Shown here in pieces: positions 2,571 through 50,540 of a stretch of 64,000 nucleotides of DNA. The DNA is from Rhodospirillales bacterium. GTDB taxonomy: Bacteria > Pseudomonadota > Alphaproteobacteria > Rhodospirillales > Casp-alpha2. The position numbers and the translations under genes are program-made. Each line of letters starts with the position of its first letter. The first letter of the stretch is position 1. The DNA lies in assembly GCA_013203955.1 (NCBI GenBank), contig JABMOY010000116.1:1-64000 (forward strand), in the 5' to 3' direction. The notes under the pieces were generated by a model. The model searched no databases, was not told where the DNA came from, and was given only the letters and a program-made list of their open reading frames with translations.

Positions 2571-3011
2571 TTACTCGACGTTGTTGTAGAACTTGTGATT
2601 GCCGATTTCGGCAGACGGCTTGCGGTCTTTCGCCCAAGGCGGCGTCACGCCCTTGGCGTGGTAGTGCGTGGCGCCGCCGGTCGGGTCTTTAAGCGTTCCG
2701 GCGAGCGCGCGCCTGGCGATACGCAGGCACGTTTGGAAGGTGCGGTTGTCTTGGCTGACCGCTTCGATCTTGGCGCGGTTGGGGTCGCCTTCGTTCCAGC
2801 AGCTGAATTGATAGGGCTTGGTCGACACATCGACCGGCGTCGCCCCCCACCAATAGCCCCGGCGTTCGGCGCCGCGCCTGGCCCGGTTCATGATGACGGC
2901 GGCGATGGCTTCCTTGCCGCGCACCAACTCGCCCCGGGCTTCGCCGTAAAGGGTGCGGGCAACGATATCGACCGCTTTGTCTTTTATTTTCTTTGGGGAG
3001 ATGGCGTTCAT
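2571..3011 (-). CDS. Cell wall hydrolase (SleB-like) endolysin
   Basis: RTLYGEARGE ... VIMNRA ... TGGATHYHA ... typical of the hydrolase_2/SleB family. Confidence 0.85.
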   Translation of the reverse strand: MNAISPKKIKDKAVDIVARTLYGEARGELVRGKEAIAAVIMNRARRGAERRGYWWGATPVDVSTKPYQFSCWNEGDPNRAKIEAVSQDNRTFQTCLRIARRALAGTLKDPTGGATHYHAKGVTPPWAKDRKPSAEIGNHKFYNNVE

Positions 3012-5184: not shown

Positions 5185-6696
5185 TTAAACGCTGAACTCC
5201 GTCTTCGCCTTGAAGCCATCCGCACCCGGCCGCCAGTTGGCGCGGCCCTTAATGTCCTTGGCATCCGGCGAAGGAAGCCGCGGCAGGCGCACCGGTTCCG
5301 ACAACAAACACCCCGACACCGCGTCCAGCCCGTCGTCGCGGGCCTTTGTTCCGGGCCGCCATTCGCGCATCTCCGTGACGAAAGGCGTCGAGAAAACGTT
5401 TCTGTGCGCATGCAGCCGTCCCGCCGCCAGCACCGCGTCGAAGGCGTCGATGATGCGAAGGTCTTTCGCCCGGTGCGACGCCTTTTCGATGACGGCGCAT
5501 TGTAAACCGGTGCCTTGTAGTTCACGCCTGAGAAGCCCCGGCAGGAATCGCCCGAGCCCGTTGGTTTCTAGCGTCACCGACGACAAGTGATTTTCGCGGA
5601 CGAAATCGACGGCTTGGCGGCAAAGCTGCGTCGCTTCGTCCGTGGTGGCGGAAAGTTCAGGGTCGTGTTCCATGTAGCGGACGGCGTGCAGCCAATAATC
5701 GCCTTCCTCGTCGGTGAAGATACAGGCGATGACGCTGGCGTCGCCTTTGTCGGGTGATCCAAATGACGGGTCCCACCAGCACGACGCCGAAACCAAGCGC
5801 CGGGCACCCAACATCAGCTTCGCCTCATTATTGGCTTCGATGTAATTCAGGTCATCGTCATAGGGACGCAGGCGGTCTGGGTCTAAGCGCCCTTCGGCGA
5901 CGTTGACGGGTCTCAGCATCATCTGGCTTTGAAACTTATTGGGCCCGGTACGGCGTTTGATGGCGTCGATCTTTTGTTGCGGGAATCTTTCCGGCCAGCG
6001 GCTTTGGCCCTTGTTGTCCAACAACGGCAGTTCCAGTCTCTTGAAGTCGTCGAGATAGGGCTTTTCCTCACCGGTTTCCGGTCGGGGGTCGCCGGTGTAG
6101 ATGGAGTAATAGGTGTGCGGCGTGCCGATATAGAGTTGCAGGCCGCCCGGCGCCAGGACGTAGTCGATCTCGTCCAAGCGCTCGCGCAGGTCTTCGCGCT
6201 TTGGCAGGGTGTCAGACGTATTCGGCACCTCGACATCGTCACAGATGACCACATCGGCGCGGGACCCGGTGACATTGGCGCCGATGCCCTTGGCCAGCAT
6301 CGACGGATCGCGGAGCTCGCGTGTTCGGTTGACGGTGAATTGGTCCGCCGCCCACTGGTCGGCGCGGGCGGGTTTTAAGCCTCCATTCAACCCCACGATC
6401 AGCGGGTGGCGTTCGATGATGCGTTTGACGTTGCGGACCATTTTGCGGGCGAGCGCCAGATCGGCGGCGAGCACCATGATCCGGATGTTGGGGTCGCGCG
6501 ACAGCAGCCACGCCGAAAACAACCCAACCAACGTCGACTTGCCGGCGTTGCGAAAGGCCAGCAACAACAGCTCCCGGTCGCCCGTCTGCCAGCGGTCGGC
6601 CAGCCAGCGGGCGATTTCGACATGGACCTCCGGCGTCTTCTGCCCTTGGTGGTTGTTCCAAACGGCGGCGAAGACGTCGAAGTTGATGGGTTTCAT
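5185..6696 (-). CDS. terL: Phage terminase large subunit
   Basis: Walker A-like LLAFRNAGKSTL, Walker B-like VVICDDVEV, nuclease-type WWDPSFG...DASVIA; start at MKPINFD. Confidence 0.88.
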   Translation of the reverse strand: MKPINFDVFAAVWNNHQGQKTPEVHVEIARWLADRWQTGDRELLLLAFRNAGKSTLVGLFSAWLLSRDPNIRIMVLAADLALARKMVRNVKRIIERHPLIVGLNGGLKPARADQWAADQFTVNRTRELRDPSMLAKGIGANVTGSRADVVICDDVEVPNTSDTLPKREDLRERLDEIDYVLAPGGLQLYIGTPHTYYSIYTGDPRPETGEEKPYLDDFKRLELPLLDNKGQSRWPERFPQQKIDAIKRRTGPNKFQSQMMLRPVNVAEGRLDPDRLRPYDDDLNYIEANNEAKLMLGARRLVSASCWWDPSFGSPDKGDASVIACIFTDEEGDYWLHAVRYMEHDPELSATTDEATQLCRQAVDFVRENHLSSVTLETNGLGRFLPGLLRRELQGTGLQCAVIEKASHRAKDLRIIDAFDAVLAAGRLHAHRNVFSTPFVTEMREWRPGTKARDDGLDAVSGCLLSEPVRLPRLPSPDAKDIKGRANWRPGADGFKAKTEFSV

Positions 6697-6719
6697 GGGT
6701 CCTCTTGTTTTAGGGCGGT

Positions 6720-7001
6720 TTATTCCAAGGTTGCCTCGGCGTCGGCGATCAGACGGTCGAGGTCGGCGTTTGGCGAGACCGGTGGTGTGATCTCGCTCGA
6801 CAGCGATTGCGCCAGCTTTATTAACTGTTCCAGGTGCGCCATCGCCGCCCGGCAGGCAGAGGAATAGGCGGCGAAGTTTCTGGCCTCCGTCGGCACCTTT
6901 CCACGTGTAAAGTCGAGATAACGCTGGAGCGCACCGTCGATCATGCCGGGCAGGCGGGCGATAAGGTCGCGGCGCCTTTCGTCGAAAATTACGGGGTCCA
7001 T
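6720..7001 (-). CDS. Putative terminase small subunit
   Basis: Position immediately upstream of terL, small helical protein (MDPVIFDERRRDLIARLPGMIDGALQRYLDFTRGK). Confidence 0.5.
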   Translation of the reverse strand: MDPVIFDERRRDLIARLPGMIDGALQRYLDFTRGKVPTEARNFAAYSSACRAAMAHLEQLIKLAQSLSSEITPPVSPNADLDRLIADAEATLE

Positions 7002-7261
7002 TACGATACTCCGTAGTCCCAATCAACTGGCCATGTATTGGCAATCGTCAGCCACGGCGCATGGGCCAATGCCAGGGCGTCGGCATCGGCTTGGCTAACG
7101 CGGCTTGAGCCGGTAATCATCCGCGTCCCCACGCCACCCTTGGGTTTCATAACCGCGTTTTCAATTTGACCGGGCCGGGCGGCGTCCGGAATATTTTGGT
7201 TGAGGTAAGTCGCGATGAACGCTGCCTCATTGGTCTTGGGGATAATAAAATAGATGGTCAT
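7001..7261 (-). CDS. Small phage protein, unknown
   Basis: MTIYFIIPKTNEAAF...; start and stop overlap neighbouring phage genes. Confidence 0.5.
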   Translation of the reverse strand: MTIYFIIPKTNEAAFIATYLNQNIPDAARPGQIENAVMKPKGGVGTRMITGSSRVSQADADALALAHAPWLTIANTWPVDWDYGVS

Positions 7262-9630: not shown

Positions 9631-11532
9631 TTAGCCGTTGATGTTGATTTCGGTGGTTACCGAAAGCAGTGTGAAGGGAAGGGGCGTCGATTGTTCGATC
9701 CGCCAAAGCGGCTCGGTGCCGTCTTTGCGCCACCCCAACGCGCGGACGGTCTTGTCGCCGGTAAAAAGCTGCGGCGCTTGGTCGAGCAGGGCATTGCCGA
9801 AGGTTTTGAACGGGACCTCCGTGAACCCGCGACCGGTATCGAGCCTAAGAACCGCTGTGTCCAGAAGCCTAAGCGTAATTGAAACAGGGCGTATCCTGCC
9901 GCCCTGGCTGCTGCCCCGGGCGGTTTGGATCGCCGCCGGCAGTGGTTCGACCGTGTGGGTAAAAGGTAGACCGATTTCCACGGCCAACGCCGGCTCGTTC
10001 AGGGTGACGGTGCCGCCGCTGACAATAAGGTTGGCGTGTTCCGCGCCATCGGCCAAAACCGCTACGGTTTCGCCTTCCAGGTGATCCAATCCGGTCCAGG
10101 TCGATTGGGGGGTGGCGTTGGTTCCGGTCAGTCCGGAATCGACGTTAAGGCCTTCCTCTAAGGTTTCGATGAATACCCCGCCGGCCCTAGACACCAGGAC
10201 ATAGGGCGTATTGCCAACCACGGCGAATGACAGGAAAGCGCCAGCCGTTTGCTGCAAGGACCACGCCGTGACTTGTTCGGATCTGAAAATAGTGACGGTG
10301 GCCATGTCGCCATTGGCCATGACCATGAACAACAGGCGTTTCGTAGAATCAAAGTCTTGGTCAACGGGCGCATCGATAAGGTGTTGGGCCAATGTCGCCA
10401 AGTCGGTGGCCTGATAAGCCTGTTCGACATCGGCGAACAGGAATTCACGAAGTTCAGGCCCGTTGCGGGGAACGAACAAAGTGGCTCCGTCGACATCCCG
10501 GGGCGGCACCGTCCTGTCGGTGGGCGATCCGATGCGGGTCTGGCGGCGGAGTTGTAAATTGCCGGGCGTCAACGGGTCGCCGGTTACCATCCATTCGGCG
10601 CCCGAGGTGAACACCTGAAGATGACGACCAGAGAAAACGGCGCGGATGGCGTTGACCTGATCGGATAGGATGGCGAATTCGATGGCTTCGTCGTCAAGCC
10701 CGGTGCCGAGGTCGAAGTTGAACAGGTCGGCCGATTTCGATAGCCACAACCGGTTGGGAAGATCGCGTGATCCCCCGATGACCATGCGGTCCTGATGAAA
10801 ATTGAGAGATGCCGGCCACCCGCGGATGGAAGAAAATGATTGCTCTTCCCAATCCTTGGTCACCGCCGTTGAAACCAGGGTTTCTTTTACCAAAGCCTGG
10901 GCCTGGGTGGCTGATGTATAGGTGGTGATTTCGACTTCCTTGTTTTCGAGCCTGAAACGGACACCCACATGTCCGGCGACGAAAACATCTACCGACGCCG
11001 TCAAGGTGATCGTCCCCGTCGTCGCACTAGGGGTCATGGTTATGTCGTCGTCTGCGAATTTGTGATGAGGCTGATAGATCCGCCCGTCCTTTTCGATGAA
11101 CGACCAGTCCGTAACGGTCCAGTTTGAATCCGATGTCCGCGTTATCTTTTTGGGCGCGATGTCCGGATGAACGACCAGTAACGTATCGGCGCTTTGCACC
11201 CAGACGAGTTGTTTGATCTGGGCTTCGGTCCAGGGCGTCGCGAAGCTTGCGACTTTTACGCCGTCCCGATATGCGTCGACGAACAAGTCGGTGAACACCA
11301 ACAGGTAAACTTGCTCGGTGTTGAATTCGAAGGCAACAAGGCGGCCCTGGCCCTTGGCTGTATCGGTGTAACGAAAGCCTTGGCGGCGGTTAACCCCGCC
11401 TGTCGGTTGGATGAAAACGTTGCGAAGTTTGGCGGCGCCGTTTTCATAGGCGCTGAGGTCACCTCGTCCGAGAAGTCTGGGAGAAATCTCGCCGGAGGTG
11501 AAACTGTTCTTATGGGTTGTGAGGCGGGGCAT
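9631..11532 (-). CDS. Tail tubular protein B / tail nozzle-like protein
   Basis: MPRLTTHKNSFTSGEISPRLLGRGDLSAYENGAAKLRNVFIQPTGGVNRRQG, typical phage nozzle N-terminus. Confidence 0.8.
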   Translation of the reverse strand: MPRLTTHKNSFTSGEISPRLLGRGDLSAYENGAAKLRNVFIQPTGGVNRRQGFRYTDTAKGQGRLVAFEFNTEQVYLLVFTDLFVDAYRDGVKVASFATPWTEAQIKQLVWVQSADTLLVVHPDIAPKKITRTSDSNWTVTDWSFIEKDGRIYQPHHKFADDDITMTPSATTGTITLTASVDVFVAGHVGVRFRLENKEVEITTYTSATQAQALVKETLVSTAVTKDWEEQSFSSIRGWPASLNFHQDRMVIGGSRDLPNRLWLSKSADLFNFDLGTGLDDEAIEFAILSDQVNAIRAVFSGRHLQVFTSGAEWMVTGDPLTPGNLQLRRQTRIGSPTDRTVPPRDVDGATLFVPRNGPELREFLFADVEQAYQATDLATLAQHLIDAPVDQDFDSTKRLLFMVMANGDMATVTIFRSEQVTAWSLQQTAGAFLSFAVVGNTPYVLVSRAGGVFIETLEEGLNVDSGLTGTNATPQSTWTGLDHLEGETVAVLADGAEHANLIVSGGTVTLNEPALAVEIGLPFTHTVEPLPAAIQTARGSSQGGRIRPVSITLRLLDTAVLRLDTGRGFTEVPFKTFGNALLDQAPQLFTGDKTVRALGWRKDGTEPLWRIEQSTPLPFTLLSVTTEINING

Positions 11533-12101
11533 CAGTTTCGCACCTGGACCAGAGAAAAGTCTTCGATTCGCCCGGGGGTGTCTTGCTGGGAATCGATCAT
11601 CTTGGCGCGCCGGAATTCCTGGTCGGCAAGTTTGTGCAGGCTTTCCGATCGGGTCGTGCTTTCGGTCAGGGGAATACAAAATTCCGCCGCCAGGCGGGTA
11701 ATCAGGGTTTGGTCGAAAAATGGTGGGAATTCGGACTCGTCGGGCCGGAAGATGTAGCTGAGCACGACTTGATCGGCATTGGCGTGCAGGCGTCTTTCGG
11801 AAATACGGTAATCAATACCTCGTCCGCGGCCGCTGGGCCCGGCCGACAGCGCCCGCAGGAAATCGGCGGGAAGTTGGAACGCATAGGCGAAATCTGCAAT
11901 CGGTTCGGCAGCCAGTTTGGGCAGGACCGACTGCGCCGAAGCAAAGCTCCAGGGGTGCGACGAAAGAAGCGCATCTCGGGTGGACGGGTATAAATTGGCG
12001 GCGACTTCGGCTTCCGCCGTGCCTTCGTCGAAAGACGCGATCGTATCGGCGCCGAGCTTCAAAAGGGCACGCGAAGATAGGGCAATAATGCTGAGAGCCA
12101 T
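11532..12101 (-). CDS. Tail tubular protein A / head-tail adaptor-like protein
   Basis: Size and motif (YPSTRDALLSSHPWSFA) match T7 gp11-like adaptors; next to nozzle. Confidence 0.75.
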   Translation of the reverse strand: MALSIIALSSRALLKLGADTIASFDEGTAEAEVAANLYPSTRDALLSSHPWSFASAQSVLPKLAAEPIADFAYAFQLPADFLRALSAGPSGRGRGIDYRISERRLHANADQVVLSYIFRPDESEFPPFFDQTLITRLAAEFCIPLTESTTRSESLHKLADQEFRRAKMIDSQQDTPGRIEDFSLVQVRN

Positions 12102-12317
12102 GGTGGGGTTTCTTTCAATTTTAGAGGAAAAGTGGAGGTTTGGAGGCCGTAATGAATTAACTTGATTTTGATTAATCAATTTTTTGAAGGAAATGTTAAA
12201 AGTTGAGGAAGTTGGTTTTTTAAATTAACTAAAAAAGCATAATTATTTAAAAGGTTGAATTTAATAAGTATTTCCTAGTTTTTTTTAGGTTAATTAAACG
12301 CCGCAATCCGAAACACC

Positions 12318-12674: not shown

Positions 12675-13493
12675 TTAAGCTTCGAGACAGCGCATGGACA
12701 CCACGCCTGATGTGTCGATCAGGCAGGAGCCTTGGCTCATCATGTTGTTGATGAAGTTGGCCGCCCGGTCGCCGTGCCAAGTGATATCGGTCTTGACGTC
12801 GGAACCGATGGCGTGGCCGATGGCGGTTTTGTGGAACCAGTAACAGTAGCGGATGCTGCTTGCTTTGGTCAGCCCCGAATGCGGGGTCCACAAGGCGCCC
12901 AACCAGCGTTTGGCCTGGGTGCCGTTCCAGGGCAATTCGTCGTCTCCGATGTAATCGGCATTGGCGAATTCTGGAATGGCCAGCAGGTCGCTCCACTGTT
13001 TCCAGCCGACAATGGCGAACCGGTCCCCGTCGTCGGGGACGTCGGCAGCGCCCAGCATCTCGAACGCTGTCAGCACTTTGGCCTTCGTCAGGCCGTCGGC
13101 GCCGGTACCGGCATAGTTGGTGGAGGTGTCCAGTTGGGTGATAACCAGCTCGTCGGTCTTGCGGCCGAGCGCATAAGCGCCGGCCTTGGCGACGACCATG
13201 CGTTCGTTGATGTTGGTCTTCAGCTCATCAAGGCTGTCGACCCAATCACCGGCATAATAGTCGGAAAGCGTGCATTCCACCGGCGTATGGTCGACGTTCA
13301 TCACCGGAACCTTGCCGTGCCGCGCTTTGGTCGAGGCCGTGCCTTTACCGACTTTCTGGAAAGTCGTTGACGAGCCGATTATGTTGTTTTTGACCCGTAC
13401 GGTGTTGCGCAGCTTCGAGCCCATCCGTTGATATTGTAGATGGACGTCGGACTGGAAGTTCTTGATGAACGCCGGTTCGATGTTGATTGACAT
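12675..13493 (-). CDS. Phage major capsid protein
   Basis: VKNNIIGSSTTFQKVGKG...VECTLSDYYAGDWVD...DRFAIVGWKQWSDLL, podovirus capsid-like. Confidence 0.78.
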   Translation of the reverse strand: MSINIEPAFIKNFQSDVHLQYQRMGSKLRNTVRVKNNIIGSSTTFQKVGKGTASTKARHGKVPVMNVDHTPVECTLSDYYAGDWVDSLDELKTNINERMVVAKAGAYALGRKTDELVITQLDTSTNYAGTGADGLTKAKVLTAFEMLGAADVPDDGDRFAIVGWKQWSDLLAIPEFANADYIGDDELPWNGTQAKRWLGALWTPHSGLTKASSIRYCYWFHKTAIGHAIGSDVKTDITWHGDRAANFINNMMSQGSCLIDTSGVVSMRCLEA

Positions 13494-13876
13494 CAATCAT
13501 TCTCCTTTCGTGAATGAGTTGTTGGCGTTGAGGTTGGATGTGCGCCCGATTTCGCGGTTATGATCCTTTAGTCCGCAGGGTTGCAGCGCTTGGACCGCCG
13601 GAAATGGAAGGCGGGGACCTGCCGGGCCGCGGCGGGATGACTTTTGAGGGGCCATCCTTCGCGGTTCTCCACCAGGGAAAACAGGAAATTGAAAATAGGA
13701 TTTAAATTTAATAAAAATTATTAAAGAGGGCCTGTGAGGAAAATCACTGCTATTGGCCTTGGTGGCGTATAAAAGCGTTTCACCAAACAAGGCTTACGTG
13801 AGCTAAGAAAAACCATTAAGATTTATCCCGGCCCCTGGGGGGATATGGTCACAATCAATCAGGAGCAGGGCTTAAA

Positions 13877-14812
13877 ATGACATTTGAACAAAAATACCGT
13901 CTCGTCACCCGAAGCGACTTTGACGGCCTCGTTTGTGCCGTCCTTCTCGAAGAATTAGAATTGATCGACGATATCTTGTTCGTCCATCCGAAAGACATGC
14001 AGGACGGCAGGGTCAATATTTCGGAAATCGACATCACCACCAACCTTCCCTACGTACCAGGGGTGCATCTGGCTTTCGATCACCACAAAAGCGAGATGAC
14101 GCGGGTCGGGGGTAATATTGATAACCACATCATCGATCCCGATGCGCCGTCGGCCGCCCGCGTGGTCTATGACTATTACGGCGGCAAGGAGGCCTTCTCC
14201 AAGATAGATACGGCTCTGATGGACGCGGTGGACAAAGCCGATTCGGCTCAATTCACCAAGGAAGAGGTCCTTAATCCCTCAGGCTGGCCGTTGCTCAACT
14301 TCATTATGGATTCCCGAACCGGTCTTGGGCGTTTCCGGGGCTTTAGAATCCCCAATTACGAATTGATGATGGCGTTGATCGAGTACTGCCACGATCATTC
14401 CATTGACGAGATCCTGGAACTGCCCGACGTCAAGGAACGGGTGGACCTTTATTTCGAAGAACAGGAAAAATTCCTCGATCAGTTGAAGCGTTGCGCCGTT
14501 GTCCGCAAAAACCTTGTCGTCCTCGACTTGCGCGACGAGGAAACCATCCACGCCGGCAACCGGTTCATGATTTACGCGCTCTATCCGGACTGTAATATCT
14601 CCATGCACGTACTCATGGGCCGCGATCAGCAGAACATCGTCTATGCCGTCGGCAAGTCCATCTTCGATAGGTCGTCGAAAACGGACATCGGCCAATTGAT
14701 GCTGGAATACGGCGGCGGCGGCCACCACGCCGCCGGCACCTGCCAGATTTCCTTAGGCGAAGCCGAAGACGTGAAGAAGGCGCTGATCGAGAGAATCAAC
14801 GACGACGGATAG
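13877..14812 (+). CDS. DHH family phosphoesterase (exopolyphosphatase/nanoRNase-like)
   Basis: TRSDFDG, FDHHKSE (DHH), C-terminal GGGGHHAAG (DHHA1); RBS AGGAG. Confidence 0.88.
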   Translation: MTFEQKYRLVTRSDFDGLVCAVLLEELELIDDILFVHPKDMQDGRVNISEIDITTNLPYVPGVHLAFDHHKSEMTRVGGNIDNHIIDPDAPSAARVVYDYYGGKEAFSKIDTALMDAVDKADSAQFTKEEVLNPSGWPLLNFIMDSRTGLGRFRGFRIPNYELMMALIEYCHDHSIDEILELPDVKERVDLYFEEQEKFLDQLKRCAVVRKNLVVLDLRDEETIHAGNRFMIYALYPDCNISMHVLMGRDQQNIVYAVGKSIFDRSSKTDIGQLMLEYGGGGHHAAGTCQISLGEAEDVKKALIERINDDG

Positions 14813-16111: not shown

Positions 16112-16528
16112 TTATGATCTCCTGGCGTGGATCGGTAGCGGGGTTTCCGGCGCGATTGGTTTTGACAGGGCCGGGCGATCTTCGCCCTTGTTCGCATTGG
16201 CGGCGAGGGTTCTTAACGTCGGACCGTTCGGGTTAATCAAGCCGTCAACCTTGAGCCCCCGGTCTTTCTGAAACTTCTTCACTGCCTCATCCGTACGGGC
16301 GCCGAAGAAGCCCGTCACCCCGTCGGTCTTGGCGAGGTCGAGCGCGCCGGCGCGGTCCAACAGGCTTTCCACCTTGGCGACGTCGCGGCGTGCGTTTGAT
16401 CCTTCCATGCCGACGGAATCACGAATGCGAAAGGAGTTCTGAAAATCCATGATCTCGGGTTCGGGTTTGGGCTCCGCCAAAAGGCGGCCGAACGGGTCGG
16501 AGGTTTGGCTGAAGGTATTAAAAGGCAT
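16112..16528 (-). CDS. Peptidoglycan-binding domain phage protein
   Basis: VTGFFGARTDEAVKKFQKDRGLKVDGLINPNGPTLRTL motif. Confidence 0.65.
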   Translation of the reverse strand: MPFNTFSQTSDPFGRLLAEPKPEPEIMDFQNSFRIRDSVGMEGSNARRDVAKVESLLDRAGALDLAKTDGVTGFFGARTDEAVKKFQKDRGLKVDGLINPNGPTLRTLAANANKGEDRPALSKPIAPETPLPIHARRS

Positions 16529-16558
16529 TTTTCATCTCCTCTATCTATGTAAATAAAT

Positions 16559-16586
16559 GGACGCCGGCCCCCGGGGGCCGGCGTCC
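16559..16586 (-). terminator. 28-bp perfect palindrome downstream of scaffold gene
   Basis: GGACGCCGGCCCCCGGGGGCCGGCGTCC. Confidence 0.5.
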
Positions 16587-16640
16587 AAAGGGGGAGCGCG
16601 CCAGGGAAGAAACGCGCTCGACCCCCAAAGGGTTATGGGT

Positions 16641-17375
16641 TCAGTCCGGGAACAGGCGTTTGAAGCCATCGCGGACGCGGGCGACGATGGCCGGGTCGTG
16701 GTCGCGCCAATAGCGCGGGTCCTGCATCATTTGTTGCAAGCCTTTCTCGCTAACGGATTCGGTTGCGGCGCCGGCGCCATCGATCAGGCCGGGTTCGTTT
16801 GAGCCCATCATTTTTTGCATGGTCAAAACGCCTTCGTAGGTGCTGGAAAGCGCACGAAAGACTTCATCGGGGTAATTGGCTTGGCCCCAGCTTTTTAATT
16901 GCGCCGCCGTTTCCCGCCATTTGTCTTCGCCGCCAAATTTTTGCGCCAAGCGGTCGATCTGCGCCTGGGCGTGGAATTCGGCGGCGACTTCGGACACCAT
17001 CGGCAGCATGTGTTCCGACGCCAGGTCATAGACGGTCTGCGCCTGTTCCTGGCTGAAGCCGGCGGAATGCAGCTTGGCATTGATATCGGGATCGCTGGTG
17101 AACAGCTCGTCTTCGACCTTGATATCGTAACCGTTGGGGTCTTCCGGGACGCCTTGGCCCGACAGTGCGCCCAGCTTCTGTTCCAGCGCCTGATAGGATT
17201 TGATCAGGCTCTCGGTGCGCAGTTCGCCCCGGTCCTGGTCCCAGAATTTTTCCGGCAAACCATCCGGGGGCGAGGGTTGGGTCCCGGTGTCCGGGACTTC
17301 GGTTTCGAGCGTTTCCGCAGGCGCGGGGTCGCCCTCGTGGTCGCCCTGGGACGTTTCCAACAGATTGTCGGTCAT
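16641..17375 (-). CDS. Phage scaffolding/capsid assembly protein
   Basis: Acidic helical protein, LPEKFWDQDRGELRTESLIKSYQALEQKLG; located between capsid and portal genes. Confidence 0.75.
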   Translation of the reverse strand: MTDNLLETSQGDHEGDPAPAETLETEVPDTGTQPSPPDGLPEKFWDQDRGELRTESLIKSYQALEQKLGALSGQGVPEDPNGYDIKVEDELFTSDPDINAKLHSAGFSQEQAQTVYDLASEHMLPMVSEVAAEFHAQAQIDRLAQKFGGEDKWRETAAQLKSWGQANYPDEVFRALSSTYEGVLTMQKMMGSNEPGLIDGAGAATESVSEKGLQQMMQDPRYWRDHDPAIVARVRDGFKRLFPD

Positions 17376-17409
17376 TGTCTTGTCTCCCTTCATTTTCGGG
17401 GTTGGTTGT

Positions 17410-17683: not shown

Positions 17684-19279
17684 TCATCCTTCGTCATCAA
17701 GTGTCTCCATCAGGTCGGGTGGAAGCGCCCCCTCAAGCCCGGCCAGCAAATCTTCGGCCCCGGCGGCAAGGTCTTCGCCCAGGGGATCAGCCAGGGGGTC
17801 GGCCAGGGGATCAAGGAGGGGATCAGGAAGTTCGCGGATCAATTCACTGGGCACCCCGAAGGCTCGGCCCAGCCATCGCCCGGCTTGCGCCAGATCGACG
17901 GCGGCGAGCCCCTCGGGTCCGAGAGTCTTGACGGTGTCGAGCCACAGCATGGTGTTTTGGGCATCTTGGCGGGCCTGTTGGCTGGCAAGCGGGGACTTGT
18001 ATTCCAGGTCGACAATGCGGCCGTCGATCCGGAAGTCGGCGATTTCACCGCGCCGGGCAAGGATGGAAAGGGCGCGGTTGACCAGCGGCGACAACAGTTC
18101 CGATTGCAGGCGGCCATACGTTGCCCCCAACACCCGCGCCATGTCGGCGGCGCGCTCCAGGACTTCGGTGGCGGTCATTTTAGGCGCGTCGATCTGGCCC
18201 AGCTTGTCGGCCAAAAGCGCTTGGCGGATGCGGGACCGAAGATCGCCGAGGACGATTTCGGAAACATCGAAGCGCCCGGGTGCCTCCAAGGGCGTTAGCC
18301 CCGCGGACCCGACGGCCTTGGGGATGACGGTGCCGGGGGTCAGTTTGATGGTGGCCGGGTTTAAGACCCCGTCATCGTCGGCCTGCCAGATTCCGGTCAC
18401 GGCGATGGACGCGTTTTTCAGCACCAGCTCGACAACCTTGTTGGCTGTCTTGATGTCCGGCAGCGTCTTCATGACGGGCGAGCGTCCGTAAATTTCTCCC
18501 GGCGCTTTAAGCCAGCGGAAATTGATGAAAGGCGACTGGGCGAAGCGCCCTTCGCTTAAGGTTGTTGGCTCGCCCATGGAAACGGGATCGGTCTCGGCGA
18601 CGGCGAGGTAGGCGAAGCCGGTATCGTCGGGGATGACCGCCTCGATAATTGGGATGCGGGTATCCGGGTCCCGGTCGGTCGTGCGCGTAATGCCTTCGGG
18701 AAGGGTGGCGTTCGGAAACCAGACTTTTAGTTGCGCTTGAGTCAATTCGCTGCGCCGGTACGTGGTGTCCAATTTTCCGAAGGTGCTTTCCTCGAAAACG
18801 ACTTGCGACAGCGGAACCGCCGTAAACCGGAAAGCCGACGGCTCGCCGGCAGGCGCTTCTTCGAACAGCAGCGACGCCGTTCCCGCCGTCACCAGGTCGA
18901 GGTAGCATTGGTGCATTTCGACGGCAAAGTTTGAACGGTCGAATTGCGACTTCATGGCCGTGGCCGCGTGCTCAAGGTCTTTCGCCATTTCCTCGCGGTT
19001 TAAATCCGTGGTGTCGGGGCCGGGGATGAACCCGAACCAGCGCGCCCAGGGAGGCGTCAGTTGCCCCAACAGGCTAGCTGCCAATTGGTCGACCGCGTCC
19101 GGCGCCGTGCCGTCGAACAGCTTGTCTGTTTTCTTTTCACCGGGTTGTGTCTGGCGGATGATGCCGTCGCGCTGGGGAAGCGCATAGTCGTAGCATTCCT
19201 GCCAGTGGCTTTCCCAAACGCCGCGCCGGTCCTTGGCGTGGCGGTAACGTTCGATGATGCCTTTCGGTGTGATGTCCAT
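17684..19279 (-). CDS. Phage portal (head-tail connector) protein
   Basis: WESHWQECYDYALPQRD...KLFDGTAPDAVDQLAASLLGQLTPPWARWF; podovirus portal-type. Confidence 0.88.
   Translation of the reverse strand: MDITPKGIIERYRHAKDRRGVWESHWQECYDYALPQRDGIIRQTQPGEKKTDKLFDGTAPDAVDQLAASLLGQLTPPWARWFGFIPGPDTTDLNREEMAKDLEHAATAMKSQFDRSNFAVEMHQCYLDLVTAGTASLLFEEAPAGEPSAFRFTAVPLSQVVFEESTFGKLDTTYRRSELTQAQLKVWFPNATLPEGITRTTDRDPDTRIPIIEAVIPDDTGFAYLAVAETDPVSMGEPTTLSEGRFAQSPFINFRWLKAPGEIYGRSPVMKTLPDIKTANKVVELVLKNASIAVTGIWQADDDGVLNPATIKLTPGTVIPKAVGSAGLTPLEAPGRFDVSEIVLGDLRSRIRQALLADKLGQIDAPKMTATEVLERAADMARVLGATYGRLQSELLSPLVNRALSILARRGEIADFRIDGRIVDLEYKSPLASQQARQDAQNTMLWLDTVKTLGPEGLAAVDLAQAGRWLGRAFGVPSELIRELPDPLLDPLADPLADPLGEDLAAGAEDLLAGLEGALPPDLMETLDDEG
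17780..17826. repeat. Short degenerate ~12-bp tandem repeat in portal 3' end
   Basis: GGGATCAGCCAG/GGGGTCGGCCAG/GGGATCAAGGAG encoding DPLLDPLADPLADPL. Confidence 0.7.
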
Positions 19280-19519: not shown

Positions 19520-19560
19520 AAAAAAAACCGCCCCAAGGACCTTTGGGGTCCGGGGCGGGG
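19520..19560 (-). terminator. Likely intrinsic terminator/attenuator between early phage ORFs and the structural operon
   Basis: GC-rich inverted repeat CCGCCCC..GGACC/GGTCC..GGGGCGG with minus-strand T-run. Confidence 0.55.
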
Positions 19561-19590: not shown

Positions 19591-20049
19591 TTAATTTAAC
19601 AGAATTTTTTCCGTTGTCAAGGGTTTTAATCTAATTTTTTTATTTTTTAGGAAAATATATAGTTTCCAGGGGGTTATAATGAAAGGCGAATGAATGCCGA
19701 GAATCCTTTTGATCGCCTCGACGCAGGTGTAGGGCGCCAAGGGCGCGGCCTTGAATCCTACAGGGTCTATCACCCACGGGACAACTTTCATGCCTTTGTT
19801 CCGGAAAAGGCCGACAAGGTCGAAGACGACGTTGCCTTCGATGAGGGTGATTTCGGTCTTGTGGGAAAGCGGGTTGAAAAGAACCCAACGGCCATGGTTT
19901 TCCAACAGGGCGAAGCAGTGCCGAAAACCGGGTTTTAGAATCTTCAGCCAGCCAAGATCGGTTTCGCCGGAAAAAACAACAAGGGCGATTCCCGGTAGTT
20001 CCAGCGATGAGGCCGGCACCGGGGTCATTCGATAATTCCCTTTGTTTTC
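19591..20049 (-). CDS. Phage-associated hypothetical protein (possible peptidase fold)
   Basis: HCFALLENHGRWVLFNP...APYTCVEAIKRILGI...ITPWKLYIFL; Cys/His spacing suggestive only. Confidence 0.5.
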   Translation of the reverse strand, partial: ENKGNYRMTPVPASSLELPGIALVVFSGETDLGWLKILKPGFRHCFALLENHGRWVLFNPLSHKTEITLIEGNVVFDLVGLFRNKGMKVVPWVIDPVGFKAAPLAPYTCVEAIKRILGIHSPFIITPWKLYIFLKNKKIRLKPLTTEKILLN

Positions 20050-20390
20050 AATACCGTTGAAAGGCGGTCTAGGGCTTCGCACCACAGCCTGGACGGACGT
20101 TCTTCTTGCCGATCCCTGGGATCGGGCGGTCTTTCGAAGAGCCCGAAGGTGCTTAAAACTTTCAAATGATCGGGCTTAATTTTTCGGGCTCGTGAAAGAC
20201 TCATGACGGCCCGATAAAGATCGTCGGGATCGCAGGGCCGGGCGGTCGCTCCGGGGTGGGCTTCAAAACGCGCCCCGTCCTGTCGGGCTTTCTGGCAGCG
20301 AATAAACCAGAACCAGGCCTGCTCGGCATTGTCGAAAGGGACAGCCGGGAAGTCGTGGAATTGTTTGGGAATGAAACGTGGTCTCGGCAT
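20025..20390 (-). CDS. Conserved phage-associated protein, first gene of the minus-strand operon
   Basis: AEQAWFWFIRCQKARQDGARFE...ARPCDPDDLYRAVMSLSRARKI; RBS AGGAG upstream. Confidence 0.6.
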   Translation of the reverse strand: MPRPRFIPKQFHDFPAVPFDNAEQAWFWFIRCQKARQDGARFEAHPGATARPCDPDDLYRAVMSLSRARKIKPDHLKVLSTFGLFERPPDPRDRQEERPSRLWCEALDRLSTVLKTKGIIE

Positions 20391-20427: not shown

Positions 20428-20442
20428 GAACAAATAAAGAAC
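20428..20442 (-). promoter_or_regulatory. LexA/SOS box (GTTCTTTATTTGTTC)
   Basis: Exact GTTC-N7-GTTC on minus strand, immediately downstream of a -10-like element and 38 nt upstream of the first phage ORF. Confidence 0.7.
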
Positions 20443-20448
20443 ATACAT

Positions 20449-20476
20449 AAAATATACGTGTTAATTCCTATGTCAA
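20449..20476 (-). promoter_or_regulatory. Sigma70-like promoter for phage operon (TTGACA-N16-TATTTT)
   Basis: -35 at 20471-20476, -10 at 20449-20454 on minus strand; LexA box overlaps expected +1 region. Confidence 0.6.
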
Positions 20477-20535
20477 TGGGTAAAAAGAAAAATGTTCCTA
20501 ATGACGGGGATGCGTAAATATATGACAGTGTTCCC

Positions 20536-50200: not shown

Positions 50201-50540
50201 GGCCTTTTCCCGGAACCGGCGCTGGCCAGCGTTATGGAAAATTCCCGGCAAATTGTACGCAAAAGTACGCATTGGCTTCCGATCAGTTGTCCGCGCCCGC
50301 ACATGAAACCAGGCCGCGTTACCGAGGCCTAAAAAGCCTGCGCGGGAGCTGAGAGACATATTCACCGTGTCCAAGAGCAAGGCGTCTTCGCATCAAGGAA
50401 GTAAAGAACAAAAACAGAACATTCGCTCATTCGGCGGGTCTGTCAATGGTCTCGGCTCCGCCACCAAACACTTTTTTAGGCCGCCGCGACCTAAATGATT
50501 TAGAACTAAGGCCATCGTTGCTCACGCTGGAAAGACCGCC

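Follow-up and report, generated by a model that had tools for sequence, protein, structure and literature searches.

Gene Organization of the Locus

The window analyzed here is a stretch of 64,000 nt (contig JABMOY010000116.1, positions 1 to 64,000) from a Rhodospirillales bacterium whose 3.1-Mb genome is a draft assembly (245 contigs, 96% complete, 7% contaminated). On the minus strand it carries a cluster of podovirus-type particle genes, headed by two small genes, g1 and g2, and facing away from a divergently encoded S24-type repressor (Table 1). In the 145 nt between the repressor and g1, the minus strand reads TTGACA-N16-TATTTT-6 nt-GTTCTTTATTTGTTC, followed by an RBS-like GGAG and the ATG of g1 at 20390. 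An earlier note on this DNA had described an exact box placed after a TTGACA-N16-TATTTT promoter and ahead of the RBS and g1, and the layout read back identically.

Table 1. Features of the repressor, its intergenic region and the particle genes, in descending order of coordinates.
Feature	Position	Strand	Basis or remark
S24-type (LexA/CI-like) repressor of 210 aa, reading away from the phage genes	20536..21168	+	PF00717, phrog_4
Candidate S24-repressor operator, TAGGAACA	20493..20500	−	AGGA conservation; repressor binding putative
−35 element TTGACA, phage-side promoter	20471..20476	−	
−10 element TATTTT	20449..20454	−	16 nt from −35; 10/12 consensus matches
LexA (SOS) box, GTTCTTTATTTGTTC	20428..20442	−	Over the expected transcription start; exact copy in 46/80 orthologous intergenic regions
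g1, 121-aa protein family known only with this element	20025..20390	−	Predicted four-helix protein
g2, conserved protein with invariant GFRH and TCVE-like motifs	19591..20085	−	Start probably internal
Terminator-like hairpin after g2	19531..19548	−	
g3, small phage protein	19284..19490	−	phrog_831
Portal/head-tail connector, T7-like podovirus type	17684..19279	−	PF12236, E = 1.4e-139
Capsid assembly scaffold, T7 type	16641..17393	−	PF05396
Strong terminator-like hairpin after the scaffold gene	16558..16587	−	13 pairs, 11 G-C, then TTTATTT
Peptidoglycan-binding protein	16112..16528	−	PF01471
Host DHH-type phosphoesterase gene splitting the cluster	13877..14812	+	
Major capsid protein	12675..13496	−	PF19821, phrog_3437
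Two tail proteins, tail tube A/B type	9631..12179	−	phrog_394, phrog_376
Terminase large subunit	5185..7044	−	phrog_38; start probably internal
Cell-wall hydrolase, probable lysis or release enzyme	2571..3011	−	PF07486

Searches of Pfam, NCBIfam and PDB with g1 returned no match, and its structure model (pLDDT 82) had no confident fold match in PDB; g2 likewise lacked a confident fold match in PDB. The idea that g1 and g2 are homologues of GafY, GafZ or GafA received no support: the g1 profile had no match in the listed genomes positive for PF13547, and the Pfam, NCBIfam and PDB searches were negative.

Distribution and Inheritance of the Locus

A portal scan with one genome per species gave 530 relatives. 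The best 80 of them belong mostly to Rhodospirillales, and the named ones include Azospirillum, Magnetospirillum, Skermanella, Defluviicoccus and Terasakiella. The order repressor-g1-g2-g3-portal-scaffold is kept in most of them, and the repressor is ∼60–88% identical across families that share the order g1-g2-g3-portal-scaffold. At the class level, a portal match was detected in 112 of 389 alphaproteobacterial genomes (57 of them strong) and g1 homologues in 48/389. All 45 genomes assigned by sequence to Azospirillum have the portal, the element is patchily present within the window's own genus, and the cluster is split and dispersed in several genomes. The structural genes tested gave dN/dS values of 0.03–0.19, and most of the relatives' genes are free of internal stops, as expected of intact genes under purifying selection. 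The earlier note had treated the locus as a phage, and missed that it is an inherited locus with class-wide distribution.

The portal and RecA trees have 7 of 22 splits in common, all of them shallow, and disagree in their deep branches; the correlation between portal and RecA distances (0.32) was reached by 7 of 5000 permutations (Mantel). Because only shallow splits are shared with RecA, inheritance looks vertical at the genus and family level, and the disagreement of the deep branches makes some horizontal transfer likely.

Such deep incongruence, the patchy presence in the window's own genus and the membership of the portal in a phage protein family would also fit an ordinary temperate or defective podovirus prophage, with related phages repeatedly integrating beside the same repressor. 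We consider this origin unlikely, because the annotated ORFs of 2.5–20.4 kb gave no match to an integrase, replication or RNA polymerase family, no tRNA gene was found in the 64-kb window, and the flanks have no word in common longer than 12 nt, a length within the shuffled range. The presence in every Azospirillum genome searched, the conservation of repressor and gene order across families and the dispersal of the cluster in several genomes also argue against it, as does the distance from known phages, since the closest portal among phages with a named host is only 37% identical. T7-like podoviruses of Alphaproteobacteria (Pelagibacter phages) do have a homologous portal (32–37% identity), but here the locus is inherited and phage replication and polymerase genes were not found among those ORFs. 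A domesticated element, rather than an ordinary prophage, is likely. We found no description of this element in the open-access papers searched.

In five Azospirillum genomes the portal gene lies in two far-apart pieces, separated by ∼15–17 kb in G099, G461, G482 and G486 and by ∼46 kb in G450, suggesting an insertion inside the gene. In four small (∼0.9 Mb) alphaproteobacterial genomes, homologues of the portal and of g1 are kept without being linked to each other, an arrangement that one would not expect of a decaying prophage. A portal 58% identical to that of the window is encoded by an unverified 5-kb contig from human faeces labelled "Bacteriophage sp." (MT838907.1); this contig could be particle-packaged bacterial DNA.

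The cluster includes tail-fibre-like genes, and SOS-controlled phage-derived killing particles exist, so that the product might be a particle for another host function (competitor killing or controlled lysis only) and not for DNA transfer. Capsid, scaffold, portal and terminase are nevertheless all retained, and the tested ones are under purifying selection, which points to DNA packaging and renders a purely non-transferring particle rather improbable.

Identity and Conservation of the LexA Box

Caulobacter LexA recognises GTTCN7GTTC (PMC12700426). Among 30 genomes (the window's own and 29 relatives), an exact box lies ≤300 nt upstream of lexA in 29, and for this reason we take GTTCN7GTTC to be the LexA box of this clade, in agreement with the earlier note, which had named it as the alphaproteobacterial box. 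In the window's own genome, exact boxes are located near lexA, ssb, dprA and comM (genes named by eye from the sequence), and recA has a box with one mismatch.

The exact motif occurs at two sites of the 64-kb window (20428 and 50406) vs. 2.66 expected from shuffles, and at 82 sites of the genome vs. 120 for the reversed control pattern. A genome-wide scan, which the earlier note had proposed, thus revealed no enrichment. As the motif is not above chance in the window or in the genome, counts alone were set aside as evidence; the case for the box is its placement and, chiefly, the fact that related loci have it in the corresponding position.

Conservation was analyzed in the region from the repressor start to the g1 start, with boxes counted on either strand, in 89 loci, of which 80 remained without near-duplicates. 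An exact GTTCN7GTTC was found in 46 of these 80 intergenic regions, vs. 0.3 expected from dinucleotide shuffles, and when the spacer of 7 was replaced by 3–6 or 8–13 only 0–2 loci matched. Relatives with an exact box include Azospirillum soli, A. doebereinerae, Magnetospirillum aberrantis and Terasakiella pusilla. In the same loci, exact-box density is 3.54/kb in the repressor/g1 intergenic region and 0.038/kb elsewhere. An exact box was absent from all seven repressor genes without an adjacent g1 (Fisher P = 0.004), although P-values overstate independence here, because the loci were picked by portal or repressor similarity and are related to one another.

The box also keeps its place relative to the promoter. 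TTGAC lies ahead of it in 42 of the 46 exact-box loci, and 4 have no TTGAC. In 37 of these 46 loci the box starts 28–37 nt past TTGAC and covers the expected start, and in 5 loci of the Azospirillum and Skermanella type it starts 20 nt past TTGAC, between −35 and −10. Between lineages its orientation flips and its position shifts by ∼12 nt, while the repressor stays conserved. A constant placement, at the start or in the −35/−10 gap in the Azospirillum type, is what would be expected of a functional site that moved.

The 34 loci lacking an exact box comprise 12 with one mismatch, 8 with two, 7 with more and 7 with no recognisable TTGAC window. The one-mismatch boxes of those 12 loci are at these same places, vs. 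∼1% of shuffled windows, and class-level relatives also have boxes. The box is thus conserved in orthologous loci, a point on which the earlier note had let its reading depend, though not universally. In the majority of Azospirillum loci the box has one mismatch, and LexA control may accordingly be weak in that genus, or have been lost.

The S24 Repressor and its Candidate Operator

In the repressor, Ala94-Gly95, Ser133 and Lys170 are kept in ≥97% of 94 aligned orthologues, and the residues of the Ser-Lys dyad are 37 apart. The same spacing separates Ser and Lys of E. coli LexA (positions 119 and 156). This LexA-type cleavage pair and catalytic dyad suggest that the S24 repressor may cleave itself.

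A conserved AGGA motif may serve as the repressor's operator. It lies 36–39 nt from the repressor start codon in 71 of the 80 loci and in most of the repressor-only loci, and the longer TTGACNNAGGA was found in 25 of the 80. A second AGGA often lies directly 3′ of the −35 element; in the window it is TAGGAA at 20470–20465. The wording of the earlier note, host SOS control "rather than only phage-repressor control," accords with a double lock, since the cleavage and dyad residues and the AGGA motif 36 nt away are conserved.

S24 repressors control their own intergenic regions, and the box sits in such a region. It could then be the operator of the divergent S24 repressor and not a LexA site, with SOS control exerted indirectly through repressor cleavage. 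This seems very unlikely to us: the seven repressor genes without an adjacent g1 have no box, while most of them retain AGGA at 36 nt; GTTCN7GTTC also stands ahead of lexA in 29/30 genomes; and the box changes strand and position between lineages in which the repressor is conserved. The unremarkable counts for window and genome might suggest that GTTCN7GTTC arose here merely by chance, in an intergenic region rich in AT, but this is hardly credible given its conservation, spacer specificity and position.

Direct LexA control, which the earlier note had proposed, thus receives strong support from the footprinting, both from the excess of exact boxes over shuffles and from their absence beside repressors alone. 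We consider direct control of the g1–portal promoter by LexA likely.

Reach of the Promoter

The earlier note had placed the whole particle and lysis operon under LexA, and this part of its claim found no support here. Transcription from the promoter would meet the hairpins after g2 and after the scaffold gene and then the oppositely oriented DHH gene, and no exact LexA box was found near the capsid-tail-terminase-lysis half in the window. The DHH gene adjoins the repressor in genomes without the element. In some genomes (Telmatospirillum, L094), the cluster runs uninterrupted on a single strand downstream of the box.

In the complete genome of one relative (G052) two extra exact boxes lie inside the cluster (L298, positions 6652 and 13426), one of them upstream of the capsid gene, which suggests several LexA-controlled promoters per cluster there. 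In three genomes (G015, G026 and G032) the repressor-box-g1-g2 part lies ∼60–95 kb away from the portal, an arrangement that would fit g1 and g2 acting in trans.

Other LexA Boxes of the Genome

The second box of the window (50406–50420, minus strand) belongs to one of at least eight dispersed units of the same genome. Each unit consists of a LexA-box promoter and a conserved leader, CTCTTGGACANNGTGAATA, to which most copies add a GC-rich hairpin followed by imperfect ∼10-nt repeats, GGACGACCG or GATGATGAG, in arrays. These units had no Rfam match, and no conserved ORF was seen in them.

Orphan genes resembling the small terminase (PF03592) are multi-copy in the genus, with three loci noted in the window's own genome and five others, and several have an exact LexA box shortly upstream. 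A link to the element was considered and not adopted, these genes being present in only part of the clade; a role for them with the terminase of the window would be putative. At two further loci, exact LexA boxes lie 81–95 nt upstream of genes judged by eye to be transposase-like.

Discussion

Since the box and the genes both recur across many alphaproteobacteria, the locus looks less like a prophage in passing than like a particle system that is inherited and triggered by damage, possibly one that moves DNA of the host from cell to cell. Our best explanation, which we hold to be probable, is an SOS-controlled, domesticated and mainly vertically inherited podovirus-type locus with a double lock of LexA and S24 repressor. 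Host LexA would occupy GTTCN7GTTC over the promoter start and block g1, g2, g3, portal and scaffold, and the dedicated S24 repressor would be a second lock on the same intergenic region. Upon DNA damage, activated RecA would lead to self-cleavage of LexA, the S24 repressor could cleave likewise, and both locks would open. For the capsid, tail, terminase and lysis genes to be expressed, transcription would have to read through the hairpins and past the opposing DHH gene; alternatively, the capsid half may have promoters of its own, or an activator or antiterminator, a role that g1 or g2 might fill. The locus would probably yield a particle with a short tail, set free by lysis following damage and possibly loaded with host DNA. 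The sequence itself shows the box and its promoter, their conservation and co-occurrence with the operon, the identity of the motif as the LexA box, and intact genes under purifying selection; LexA binding, repressor cleavage, particle production and cargo are the steps that we infer.

The locus shares with the alphaproteobacterial SOS regulon the same motif, also present ahead of lexA here, and a box overlapping the core promoter. It differs in that the target is a particle locus and not a repair gene, and in that a second repressor, of the S24 type, would share the intergenic region.

Like the gene transfer agents (GTAs) RcGTA and CcGTA (Rhodogtaviriformidae and relatives), it is an inherited phage-derived head-tail locus under purifying selection in many alphaproteobacterial species. 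In contrast to RcGTA, the capsid and portal are of podovirus type and not those of the RcGTA head-tail set, the box lies directly on the promoter, and the repressor is S24 and not RogA. In RcGTA the influence of LexA is indirect, via CckA, by the summary given in PMC6363796 (citing Kuchinski 2016). The RcGTA marker PF13547 (GTA TIM-barrel protein) is absent from the window's own genome; it was found in 40/389 genomes, with no overlap with the 57 strong-portal genomes (P = 0.001 without phylogenetic correction). A search for RcGTA-like clusters likewise found none in Rhodospirillales or Azospirillales (PMC6821227). The GTA-like element FpGTA of Faecalibacterium (PMC12946183) is podovirus-like by description, as is the one reported here, and belongs to another phylum.

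According to PMC3899980, Azospirillum lipoferum 4B and Azospirillum sp. B510 treated with mitomycin C release particles that were judged to be GTAs and contain random host DNA of ∼10 kb, and A. brasilense CBG497 did not lyse. The genes of these particles were never identified, and the guess made there was at other regions (PMC3899980). The particles are damage-induced and carry random host DNA, and every Azospirillum genome searched has the present element; our hypothesis is that the element makes them.

That the locus is a GTA is a possibility with nearly, though not quite, even chances. The wider proposal is similarly tentative, namely an independent podovirus-derived class of alphaproteobacterial GTAs, found mainly in lineages without RcGTA, governed by a double SOS lock and supplying the genes for the ∼10-kb particles of Azospirillum.

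If true, (i) damage to DNA would be a direct trigger of particle production, and perhaps of DNA exchange, in a large share of the Alphaproteobacteria, one without the known RcGTA; (ii) a candidate podovirus-type GTA would be added to those known, and the orphan particle phenotype of Azospirillum would be given its genes; and (iii) the promoter would offer two locks, each separately testable. It also suggests that conserved phage genes of this kind should be counted as host equipment and not as prophage remnants.
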